Below, piece by piece: positions 7,969-35,756 of a stretch of 35,957 nt of DNA. Origin of the DNA: Candidatus Cloacimonadota bacterium (GTDB lineage: Bacteria; Cloacimonadota; Cloacimonadia; Cloacimonadales; TCS61); assembly GCA_021736135.1 (NCBI GenBank), contig JAIPGO010000036.1:1-35957 (forward strand), written 5' to 3'. A program made the position numbers and the translations under genes. The notes under the pieces were generated by a model. It searched no databases. It saw nothing but the letters and a program-made list of their open reading frames with translations, and was not told the DNA's origin. Each line of letters starts with the position of its first letter. The stretch's first letter is position 1.

Positions 7969-8518
7969 AAATAGAACCGTTTCACTGCCTATCGAATTGA
8001 GACGTAAGGCAGGTGCCACTATTACGGAGGTCATCCAATTATAAGAGACTATTCAATCTAAATATATATCACATAAGCTTAATATAAAAATCAGGAAGAA
8101 AAAGTGCAACTTAATTGTCCTTAATCTCAGTTAAGGAGAGTTGACAAAAATAATTTTTCGGGGAAATTCTGGGAATATTATTTAGTCCGTAGGACTTATC
8201 TATTTGTAGAATAAATATCACATACAGGGAAAAGAAAAAAACCAGAGACACCTTTCTTGATGCTTTATAAATGGCATCAACTTGAGCAGTATTTGTCAAG
8301 AAAACACTAAAGGAGCAATGTTATTAATATAATTCACTAAAAGTTATTGAAAAGTGGTAATTGAAAGTGAACAGTCTCAATTATAAGCAAGATGGAATCA
8401 ATAGAGTAACGATTTACAGAAAGGCTTTTAGAGAAGCAGTTCAGGCTTAATTAATAAAATTTTACTTTACACTAAAGCTATCTCGTAAAGGGTGTAATTA
8501 TTAGATAATAATAATAAC
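7969..8518. other. Gene-free stretch upstream of the carboxyltransferase genes
   Basis: AT-rich DNA with no ORF supported by a ribosome binding site. It contains only short hairpins (AGTCC/GGACT near 8190 and TGATGC/GCATCA near 8260). No convincing promoter was found close to the start at 8529. It may hold a leader or more decayed repeat DNA. Confidence 0.5.
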
Positions 8519-13963: not shown

Positions 13964-14773
13964 ATGCAATTGGAAGAAGTAGTTAGACTGGAATGCTGTA
14001 CCACAGATTTTCAGGCAAAAAACAAGGAAAGTGCTTTAAATGAACTGGTAAAGCTTGTTAAACATAACAGCATTTTAAAAGATATACCTGATGCGGATAT
14101 ACTGGCAGCTTTGAAAAAAAGGGAAAACCAGGGCAGTACCGGTTTTGGGAAAGGCATTGCTATTCCTCACTGCCAGATCAGTGGACTGGATGATTTCGTG
14201 GTCGGAATTGCCATCGCCAGGAAAGGTGTGGATTTTGACGCAATGGACCATAAAAAAGTGAGGATATTCGTTATCATCGTGGGTCCGGTGGAAAGCCGCA
14301 GCGGGCATCTGCAACTGCTGGCAATGGTTTCCAGGATCTTGAAAGAACCGGGAATTGAAGATAGCCTCTTTGCCCAGGATAGTAAGATTGGTCTGCTGGA
14401 TGCCTTCTTGAGGAATGGGCCTGATACTCTGGCAATAAGCAGTCACGGCAAAGATAAGCTGATGCTACTGCTGGTGCACGATCCTGAGATAATGGACGAA
14501 ATCGGAGAAATATTTATTGAGTACGGGATTGAAGAAGCCACGATTATCGAAACCAGCAATATGAAATCAGTCCTGTCACATGTACCCTTGTTCCTGGGAT
14601 TTTTCAACTTTACCGGAGACCGCGAAAGTAATGGCAAATTGCTGCTATTAAAACTGCAAAGGAACTATATTAATGCCCTGGTAGCCGGTCTGGAAGATGC
14701 TTTCGGTAATCTTGACGATTTCAGTGGATTAAGCCTGGTTGTACTGGATATCTTTTATGCCCGAGGTCTTTGA
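13964..14773 (+). CDS. PTS EIIA(Fru/Ntr)-like protein with C-terminal PII-like domain
   Basis: A soluble 269-residue protein. Residues 1-150 match the EIIA fructose/nitrogen family, with the phosphohistidine motif GKGIAIPHCQ (H69) and the GHLQLLAMVSRIL helix. Residues about 163-269 (KLMLLLVHDPEIMDEIGEIF, then IEEATIIE and a final strand GLSLVVLDIFYA) have the beta-alpha-beta spacing of a PII/ferredoxin-like sensor domain. That second assignment is inference from pattern only. It begins 1 nt after the antiporter stop, with its AGGAG inside the antiporter gene. EIIA-Ntr proteins regulate K+ transport in enterobacteria, and PII-like proteins are often encoded beside the transporter they control. 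Regulation of the antiporter by phosphorylation or a small ligand is therefore a natural reading. No EI or HPr gene is seen here. Confidence 0.82.
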   Translation: MQLEEVVRLECCTTDFQAKNKESALNELVKLVKHNSILKDIPDADILAALKKRENQGSTGFGKGIAIPHCQISGLDDFVVGIAIARKGVDFDAMDHKKVRIFVIIVGPVESRSGHLQLLAMVSRILKEPGIEDSLFAQDSKIGLLDAFLRNGPDTLAISSHGKDKLMLLLVHDPEIMDEIGEIFIEYGIEEATIIETSNMKSVLSHVPLFLGFFNFTGDRESNGKLLLLKLQRNYINALVAGLEDAFGNLDDFSGLSLVVLDIFYARGL

Positions 14774-14871
14774 GTTTTAAGGGTCAACCCACAGGTTTAT
14801 CCCAATAAAAATTATACCTGGGGCAGATCAATGTATCCACTCCGGACAGTTAAGGAAGTTTATTTTCTTTT

Positions 14872-15187
14872 CAGGCATTCCCCCGTTTTATTATTCAGGA
14901 TATGAGGTAACTTCATATTTAATAAAGTAATATTTAGGATTTATCTCTTATAATTCCCGGTACGGGATAAATTTGTATAGCGCAAGTTTGCACCGCAGGT
15001 GCTACCTTATGTAAAAAATGAAACGCCTCCCACCCCATCGGCGCTGCGCGCCGATGGGGTGGGGGGATGCTTCATTCGTATGGTAGTCTCGGAGTACCGA
15101 TCCAACCATACGCTATACAAATTTATCCCTTTCAGGGAAATGAAACTCTACAACAGGAGAGATATTTAAAAATTTCGGGGGGATGCC
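14872..15187. mobile_element. Non-coding inserted element with cloverleaf-like nested palindromes and flanking direct repeats
   Basis: A 15-nt direct repeat, AGTTTATTTTCTTTT, flanks the element at 14857-14871 and 15188-15202, as expected of a target duplication. Just inside, GGCATTCCCCCG (14874-14885) matches the reverse complement of the right end (GGCATCCCCCCG) at 11 of 12 positions. The core has a perfect 19-bp inverted repeat (14964-14982 with 15111-15129) enclosing three hairpins: 14990-15002, a very strong GC-rich one at 15018-15075 whose central 14-bp stem is 15031-15044 with 15048-15061, and 15077-15112. There is no coding capacity. A copy of the right end recurs at about 35671-35683. 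It is probably a MITE-like element mobilised in trans; a structured RNA is the alternative. Confidence 0.72.
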
Positions 15188-15205
15188 AGTTTATTTTCTT
15201 TTAAC

Positions 15206-15236
15206 TTGACTTTAATTAACCAGCTTTCAATATAAG
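15206..15236 (+). promoter_or_regulatory. Candidate promoter for the REC-PAS-PAS gene
   Basis: TTGACT (15206-15211) is followed by TATAAG (15231-15236) with a long 19-nt spacer; AATATA at 15229 gives 17 nt. It lies just outside the inserted element and about 35 nt before the start. A near-repeat ATAAGTATGCT occurs twice (about 15232 and 15246) between it and the ribosome binding site. Confidence 0.4.
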
Positions 15237-15270: not shown

Positions 15271-16641
15271 ATGAAAATTTTAATTGTTGATGACAATAGC
15301 GAAAGTCTTTATCTGCTGCAATACATATTACAAGGGAAAGGCTTCGTTACAGTTACTGCTTCAAATGGAGCTGAAGCACTCATCAAACTCCGCCAGGAGG
15401 CAAGCGATTTGATCATTTCCGATATATTGATGCCGGAGATGGACGGCTATCAATTTTGCCGTGAGGTTAAAAAAGATAAGCAATTGAGGCATATTCCCTT
15501 CATTTTTTATACCGCTACTTATACTGACCGGGAAGACGAAGAATTTGCCTTAAAGCTGGGGGCTGATCTCTTTCTCCGTAAACCTCTGGATCCGGTTAAG
15601 ATAGTTCAGGAAATCCAGAATATACTCAGTACAGGAGAAATTAACAAGCTCCAGGAGACAGAATCGGTTGATGAATCTGAGATTTTCCAGCTTTACAGTC
15701 AGCGACTGGTTCATAAACTGGAAAAGAAAGCTCATGATCTGGAAATTATGGAATATAAATACCGGACTCTCTGTGAAAGCGTGAATGACCTGATTTTTTC
15801 TCTCGATGAAAAGGGATGTTTTGACTTGCTTAACTGCCGTATTGATCTTTTTGGTTATACTCATGAAGAGATACAGGGAAAGAGTGTGCTGGAAATTCTC
15901 ACTCCTCAAAGCCGAGAAGTAATTAATAAATATTTTCAGCAGGCAAAAGAAAGTCCTGCTCAGAACAGGATCCCGTTTGAACTCGAGTTCATCAATAAGG
16001 ATGGTTCTTTATCCATCGGGGAATTAAGTATTTCCACTAGTTTCCGGGAAAATAAATTCAAGGGCATTTTTGGCGTGGTTCGTGATATCACGAAATCCCG
16101 GCAGCAGGAAAGGGAATACAAACAGCTAATAGACAGTATGAACGATACGGCTTTCGTCATCAACTTCGACGGTAAATTTCTGGAAGTTAATAAAACCGCC
16201 CTGCAGGTCTTTGGCTATTCCAGAGAGGAATTCCTGAACCTGGGACCTGCGGATATCGATCGCCAGATATCCCCTGAAGCAATTAAGGGATTAATTGCAA
16301 ATATCACTTCTGACACCATACAGGTCTTTGAAACTCAGCATATGAAAAAAGACGGCACTGTTTTCCCAGTAGAGATCAGCTCCAGCCTCGTTACTTATAA
16401 AGGGGAACTCGCCATTCTCAGCATTGCTCGGGATATCACTATCCGTAAAGGGGTGGAAGAAGAATTGCAAAAACACCGTGACCATCTGGAAGAACTGGTT
16501 CAGGAACGCACTCGTGAACTGGAAGAAAAAAATAAACAACTGGAAGATTTCAACAGAGTATTTGTCGGCAGAGAATTCCGCTTAAAAGAACTTCGCGATA
16601 AAGTTAAAGTACTAGAAGCAAAACTGGGATTAAATGATTAA
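15271..16641 (+). CDS. Response-regulator receiver protein with two PAS domains and a C-terminal coiled coil
   Basis: A cytoplasmic signalling protein of 456 residues. Residues 1-118 form a receiver domain with VDD near 6-8, phospho-acceptor D51 (SDILMPEMDG) and conserved K104 (RKP). Two PAS domains follow (about 160-275 and 277-400). A charged coiled coil (about 403-455, ELQKHRDHLEELVQERTREL) then ends the protein. Such coiled coils normally lead into a histidine kinase, GGDEF or phosphatase domain, but here the protein simply stops. The start is the ATG at 15271, 6 nt after AGGA; an in-frame TTG five codons upstream is less likely. It may act as a single-protein sensory adaptor controlling a separately encoded kinase. 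No cognate kinase is in the window. Confidence 0.9.
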   Translation: MKILIVDDNSESLYLLQYILQGKGFVTVTASNGAEALIKLRQEASDLIISDILMPEMDGYQFCREVKKDKQLRHIPFIFYTATYTDREDEEFALKLGADLFLRKPLDPVKIVQEIQNILSTGEINKLQETESVDESEIFQLYSQRLVHKLEKKAHDLEIMEYKYRTLCESVNDLIFSLDEKGCFDLLNCRIDLFGYTHEEIQGKSVLEILTPQSREVINKYFQQAKESPAQNRIPFELEFINKDGSLSIGELSISTSFRENKFKGIFGVVRDITKSRQQEREYKQLIDSMNDTAFVINFDGKFLEVNKTALQVFGYSREEFLNLGPADIDRQISPEAIKGLIANITSDTIQVFETQHMKKDGTVFPVEISSSLVTYKGELAILSIARDITIRKGVEEELQKHRDHLEELVQERTRELEEKNKQLEDFNRVFVGREFRLKELRDKVKVLEAKLGLND

Positions 16642-35652: not shown

Positions 35653-35756
35653 TACAATTTTATTGAGAAAGCGGGGGGATGCCAGGTAATGTAATTTATA
35701 CCAGATCTGAGTTTAATTATATCATGCTAAAAAAGACTCTTTCCCAAAGAAGTAAA

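Follow-up and report, generated by a model that had tools for sequence, protein, structure and literature searches.

An IS4-like insertion sequence lineage of Cloacimonadota, together with its MITEs, appears to target promoters by their −35 element, inserting at a constant distance from it and with a single polarity and sparing the core promoter; we put the probability of this reading at almost nine in ten. The window, i.e. the whole stretch of 35,957 nucleotides analysed here (contig JAIPGO010000036.1 of a Candidatus Cloacimonadota bacterium), carries one such element: judged from its sequence, the stretch 14872-15189 is a small mobile DNA element, a non-autonomous MITE (Table 1), whose right end faces the promoter of the downstream gene. 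The key feature, AAC-TTGACT (15203-15211), lies right after the right repeat and just outside the interval 14857-15202 described in an earlier sequence-only reading of this DNA, which missed the fixed placement upstream of promoter −35 boxes.

Table 1. Features of the MITE and its surroundings in the window.
Feature	Position	Strand	Basis or remark
Upstream gene with PTS EIIA-2 domain, uninterrupted by the element	13964..14773	+	
Target duplication, left copy, 13 bp, TTTATTTTCTTTT	14859..14871	+	
MITE, 318 bp	14872..15189	+	Boundaries from the alignment of 33 copies and direct repeats varying between copies
Left terminal inverted repeat (TIR), CAGGCATTCCCCCG; family consensus CTGGCATCCCCCCG	14872..14885	+	
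Perfect 19-bp inner stem, 5' half	14964..14982	+	97.8% of cells paired in 33 copies
First inner hairpin, GCACC-GCA-GGTGC	14990..15002	+	Fold of the window copy
GC-rich inner hairpin	15026..15066	+	15026-15044 with 15048-15066, 95% complementary
Third inner hairpin, TATGGT...ACCATA	15079..15110	+	TAAGGT...ACCTTA in most other copies
Perfect 19-bp inner stem, 3' half	15111..15129	+	Pairs with 14964-14982
Right TIR, CGGGGGGATGCCAG	15176..15189	+	
Target duplication, right copy, 13 bp, TTTATTTTCTTTT	15190..15202	+	
Spacer AAC, 3 nt, from duplication to −35 box	15203..15205	+	Spacing constant across copies
TTGACT, inferred −35 box of the downstream gene, target landmark	15206..15211	+	Position and enrichment
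Downstream gene whose promoter is targeted: response regulator receiver and PAS domains	15271..16641	+	

The exact 15-mer direct repeat AGTTTATTTTCTTTT that the earlier reading had placed around the element is present at 14857-14871 and 15188-15202. The duplication itself is 13 bp and not 15 bp, since the additional AG of the 15-mer coincides by chance with the last two bases of the element. The 12-nt inverted ends GGCATTCCCCCG / CGGGGGGATGCC, matching at 11 of 12 positions as had been claimed, were extended to TIRs of 14 bp (12/14 matching) once the element was aligned with other copies. No ORF of at least 60 aa was found inside it, again as noted before, and the ATG of the downstream gene (15271) is 65 nt past the start of TTGACT (15206). 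Being short and without a transposase ORF, and having TIRs and a target duplication, the element has the make-up of a MITE, and it is likewise repeated at many dispersed places with duplications that differ. The right-end sequence CGGGGGGATGCCAG recurs near the contig end, at 35673-35685, followed by GTAATGTAATTT without TTGACA; this is probably an end of that class which has decayed or stands alone.

The search for a second copy, which the sequence-only reading had suggested as a check, returned approximately 42 copies in the home genome (4.14 Mb in 148 contigs), most of them full-length and 83-93% identical. The body of the element was not found in 59 relatives, where matches were limited to about 23-34 bp of the ends. 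The direct repeat differs from copy to copy and spans about 13-15 bp, usually 12-18 nt by longest match. The copies were gathered by homology of their bodies, the target motif playing no part in the selection, so the motif described below is not a selection artefact.

When the flanks were aligned, a recurrent layout emerged: repeat-C-element-repeat-NNN-TTGACA. TTGAC or TTGCCA was present within 45 nt to the right of the element in 33 of the 38 copies with flanks (TTGACA 25, TTGACT 6, TTGCCA 2, absent 5), compared with TTGAC in 16 of 325 background windows, and the mirror motif to the left was found in none of the 38. Two of the five motif-less copies (L045, L053) adjoin another element inserted at that site. 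Among copies whose repeat has a clear end, the distance to the box is 3 nt in 18-19 and 2 or 4 nt in about three, the latter spacings being consistent with a one-base ambiguity of the repeat. The pattern GGGGGATG-N12-36-TTGACA was found 46 times in the home genome (reversed control, 0) and is present in 26 of 40 relatives, most often in G019 (38), G004 (20) and G006 (13). Beyond the hexamer, the target logo contains little but AT-richness at −9 to −5 and a C at −1. Random insertion, with only those copies surviving that lie just upstream of promoters, would be a rival explanation, and intergenic elements are generally enriched among surviving insertions. Nevertheless, we consider it very improbable: spacing of 3 nt at base resolution and the complete lack of reversed orientations are impossible from survival alone, and the probability that 31 of 36 copies would carry TTGAC at a single set position by chance is < 1e-80.

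Tandem or nested insertions at one promoter were seen at L045, L053 and L060. Another repeated end, (GCCTGAAAGT)GAACAGTCTC, occurs at position 8369 of the window and in L051, L053, L094, L099, L130, L147 and others, with 17 distinct contexts in 355 kb of the genome; it often adjoins G-tract ends and probably belongs to a different mobile element family in common insertion neighbourhoods.

The box next to the elements is a promoter signal. Across 149 sites pooled over genomes, in which a gene was sought within 250 nt by a simple rule, an ORF with a ribosome-binding site followed TTGACA, mostly 40-80 nt on, at 109/144 sites versus 5/134 in the reversed orientation; about a quarter of the pooled sites had no gene within that distance by this rule. 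Three further sites lead to tRNA genes for Thr, Leu and Gly (L054 and L045 in G000, L115 in G005). Among hexamers in front of genes without an element, TTGACA likewise ranks first in enrichment (15 vs 1), and it is the −35 box of the home genome. No peak of TATAAT, the −10 element, was detected downstream of the pooled sites. The flanks of all pooled sites contain a weak excess of TAnnTTTG 15-23 nt past TTGACA, which we take to be the Bacteroidetes-type −7 element; this suggests that Cloacimonadota promoters combine a TTGACA −35 box with an FCB-type −7 element.

Two ways of finding this site have to be weighed. We see an even chance that the transposase simply reads TTGACA as DNA, promoters being hit because the hexamer is their hallmark and other insertions having been lost. 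The hexamer is almost invariant at the targets and the logo adds little to it, and sequence-specific target arms are known in elements of IS4 subgroups (PMC2266710). Against direct readout as the only factor, intergenic TTGAC[AT] of the home genome is promoter-like in 34 of 51 element-adjacent cases versus 35 of 131 others (Fisher p ~1e-6), an excess that could also come from purifying selection. Alternatively, the transposase might dock at the −35 element, either on the sigma factor or RNA polymerase or on promoter DNA that these have deformed, much as Ty3 uses TFIIIB and as has been suggested for IS1202-family elements with XerC; we regard this as a serious possibility at somewhat worse than even odds. 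Such tethering is favoured by the precise distance and uniform polarity with respect to a site of protein binding, by real promoters being in excess over the remaining intergenic TTGAC and by the use of tRNA promoters, as well as by the precedent of the IS1202 family, inserted at a fixed 5 bp and in one orientation from the XerC site (PMC10132070). However, the target hexamers look at least as tightly conserved as general promoter −35 boxes, no dedicated sigma-binding domain was identified in the transposase, and the downstream −10 signal is weak. A fuller version, in which docking on promoter-bound RNA polymerase or sigma at −35 would have spread mobile modules in one orientation to sites upstream of active promoters across the phylum, with the core rebuilt each time, can be put forward only tentatively.

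Many of the pattern matches turned out to belong to further MITE families, about 160-350 bp long, whose ends and geometry are the same and whose interiors differ and are often palindromic. Because the survey of these sister MITEs anchored the duplication 3 nt before the box, the unanchored evidence for the spacing is that of the home-copy flanks, the direct-repeat ends and the insertion sequence (IS) loci. A DDE transposase is encoded in a 1.5-kb copy of G004 that has the ends CACTCATCCCCCCG / CGGGGGGATGCCAG, ATA-TTGACA and a duplication of 12 bp. Homologues of this protein were found in 23 of 59 relatives and at 58 loci of named genomes, the closest being nearly all from Cloacimonadota. At least 15 distinct Cloacimonadota IS loci, gathered by transposase protein homology alone, have a TIR, a duplication of 9-17 bp, NNN and TTGACA past the 3' end of the transposase gene; one copy, L199, has no recognisable right end in the stretch examined. 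Outside the phylum, a Calditrichaceae copy has TTC-TTGATA, a Bacilli copy has TTC-TTGATT if its ends are shifted to a perfect 12-bp TIR, and a Verrucomicrobia copy and one unclassified copy lack such a box; with the box loose or absent there, a strict preference for TTGACA seems confined to the lineage in Cloacimonadota. In the home genome, a transposase C-terminus followed by the right end ...GGGGGGATGCGTG-ATCTTATTTTT-CAC-TTGACA lies at a contig edge. This transposase is an 81-aa C-terminal match cut by the contig end; the home assembly yielded no intact autonomous copy, and intact ones are present in related genomes. Ends of the G017 type (CATACCCCGAAAA) were not found in the home genome.

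The autonomous elements are about 1.5-1.8 kb long and encode an IS4-like DDE transposase and nothing else, in a single ORF of about 435-465 aa without a frameshift. The transposase carries PF01609, candidate catalytic D/D/E residues and the Y(2)R(3)E(6)K motif (YRLRWKIEEFHRHVK in P0001), of which Y330, R333, E337 and K344, together with the candidate catalytic aspartates D105 and D195, are invariant in seven aligned relatives. A PDB profile search with the transposase returned only the Tn5 transposase (E 1.7e-4), and the top six Foldseek matches were all Tn5 transposase or its inhibitor (E 5e-11 to 1e-8), with a query model whose pLDDT was only 64. The motif, the single ORF in an element of about 1.2-1.8 kb and the Tn5-like fold are those of the IS4 family. 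All named NCBIfam IS4/IS701 models scored below their cut-offs (best, 73 bits against 152); consequently, we speak of an IS4-like lineage and not of a member of a named subgroup. The duplications of the IS are mostly 9-12 bp, about one helix turn as in the IS4 family (8-13 bp); those of the MITEs and a few IS reach 13-17 bp, somewhat above that published range.

Duplications of about 15 bp beside a fixed, leader-like motif recall Cas1 insertion and could point to a casposon-like element, or else to a REP/RAYT (HUH) or IS1202-family element. We attach next to no weight to another class of this kind, as the relatives encode only an IS4-like DDE transposase with a Tn5-like fold, and IS1202 elements have 5-bp duplications and TGT ends (PMC10132070). 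Taken singly, the casposon reading was ruled out by the transposase, an IS200/IS605 reading of the TTGAC target by the target duplications and the DDE enzyme, and IS1202 membership by the ends (CTGGCATC or CACGCATC) and duplications of 9-17 bp. The kinship with REP/RAYT elements raised in the sequence-only reading found no support, the partner being an IS4-like DDE transposase; membership was ruled out by the target duplications and by a DDE partner with matching ends. Its suggestion of a non-autonomous element mobilised in trans is supported by the copies with their own repeats, the related autonomous IS and the empty sites of sister elements.

Such empty sites, another check that had been proposed, were obtained for two sister elements but not for the window copy, the compared genomes including no second one of its genus. 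For the MITE L168 of G004, a paralogous stretch of the same genome without the element carries a single repeat copy and, after it, CTA-TTGACA; in the case of the element at the umuC promoter of G004 (L172), the G026 orthologue without it carries one copy of the repeat and then AGC-TTGACA. The single repeat and NNN-TTGACA at these sites imply that the box predates the insertion. An apparent empty site of L152 was set aside, as it concerns a different element without C/G-tract ends. That element (L152:461-661 in G019) is a palindromic stretch of about 200 bp (ACTTGCCCCGCTGATGGTACTCC...), missing from the orthologous G004 and G026 sites, and it resembles the interior of the L093 MITE.

The 19-bp inner stem and the three hairpins, one of them GC-rich, are all located where the sequence-only reading had put them. 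It had also proposed that this cloverleaf could be a structured RNA or a protein-recognition structure, and we consider a conserved structure with its own function, such as a riboregulator or a cruciform, improbable. The single-strand fold of the element is strong (−144 kcal/mol vs −81 ± 5 in shuffles; z = −11.5), 97.2% of cells are paired across the 33 aligned copies, and 21 cells carry two-sided changes versus 4.3 in shuffles, which gives the idea a weak positive signal. Nevertheless, these changes fall in only 7 of 64 pairs, clustered in a few pairs and subfamilies and mostly common by descent; the RNAalifold covariation term is −0.08, i.e. nil, and an Rfam search of the window at gathering thresholds gave no match. 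Self-correction of a palindrome and loop inversion would yield an equal signal, and the sister MITE families at the same targets have different, likewise palindromic interiors. Some copies have the apical loop of the GC-rich hairpin as GCGCTGCGCGC and others, in the opposite orientation, as GCGCGCAGCGC (alignment columns 183-193), which is a loop inversion within the palindrome. With covariation this weak, a functional RNA role for the cloverleaf seems unnecessary to explain the data; the interior may be fold-back filler or have a putative role in transposition or host interaction.

Returning to promoter targeting by the IS4-like lineage, the following mechanism may be proposed. The DDE transposase, supplied in trans, would cut the MITE out by its short C/G-tract TIRs (of the CTGGCATCCCCC...GGGGGATGCCAG type) and insert it into the 10-15 bp directly upstream of a −35 box, exactly 3 bp from TTGACA/T and with the promoter always on the side of the right (GGGGATG) end. 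The insertion region would correspond to about −40 to −54 of the promoter, where the duplication would restore the native upstream element. Since a duplication of 10-15 bp rebuilds the sequence upstream of −35, the core promoter would keep its context and the gene should stay expressible, which would amount to a safe-site strategy. The cut-and-paste chemistry, the mobilisation of the window MITE by the transposase and the harmlessness to expression are what we infer from this arrangement.

Bacterial insertion sequences are usually seen as random, weakly selective, or confined to one site per genome. Here, one transposase lineage seems to use the commonest regulatory signal, the −35 box, as a landmark with base-pair precision throughout a phylum, many MITE families following it, and tens of promoters of the home genome carry inserted palindromic modules directly upstream. 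The system may offer a natural means of placing DNA in front of promoters with the target sequence restored. It may also serve to test whether transposases are tethered to polymerase in bacteria, and to map the promoters of an uncultured phylum from sequence. A literature search of limited coverage for promoter- or −35-targeting insertion sequences returned no precedent, which leaves absence unproven.

The Ty3 and Tf1 elements integrate just upstream of host promoters, sparing genes; both are LTR retroelements that factors of Pol III or Pol II tether to their sites, TFIIIB in the case of Ty3. If tethering is true, the lineage would be a bacterial counterpart of their targeting: integration upstream of promoters is shared, whereas the type of element, the enzyme and the domain of life differ. 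Tn7, directed to attTn7 by TnsD, follows a comparable safe-site strategy with fixed distance and orientation, but uses one site per genome and a multi-protein machinery (PMC2918618), in contrast to the many promoter sites and single transposase here. Bacterial MITEs such as MITEAba12 are likewise short, ORF-less, trans-mobilised elements with TIRs, a target duplication and many copies (PMC6382973); those of Cloacimonadota differ in targeting promoters to the base pair and in having, within one genome, several unrelated interiors with common ends and target.

The IS4 family (subgroups IS4, IS231, ISH8 and IS4Sa) shares with the lineage a single-ORF DDE transposase with the Y(2)R(3)E(6)K motif, TIRs, duplications of about one helix turn, a Tn5-like fold and, in some members, target-arm specificity (PMC2266710). 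The review of the family describes such specificity in some subgroups and does not mention promoters (PMC2266710). The Cloacimonadota elements differ in their C/G-tract ends, duplications often of 11-15 bp, scores below the cut-offs of the named NCBIfam IS4 models, and strict 3-bp spacing from the −35 box in one polarity. In precision and polarity, their targeting resembles that of IS1202-family elements (ISAjo2, ISAba32, ISAba71), whose insertions lie beside the binding site of a host protein, the XerC site of pdif/dif, always 5 bp away and in one orientation (PMC10132070). That family has a TnsB-like transposase, TGT ends, 5-bp duplications and dif sites as targets (PMC10132070), whereas the Cloacimonadota lineage is IS4-like and lies 3 bp from promoter −35 boxes genome-wide.
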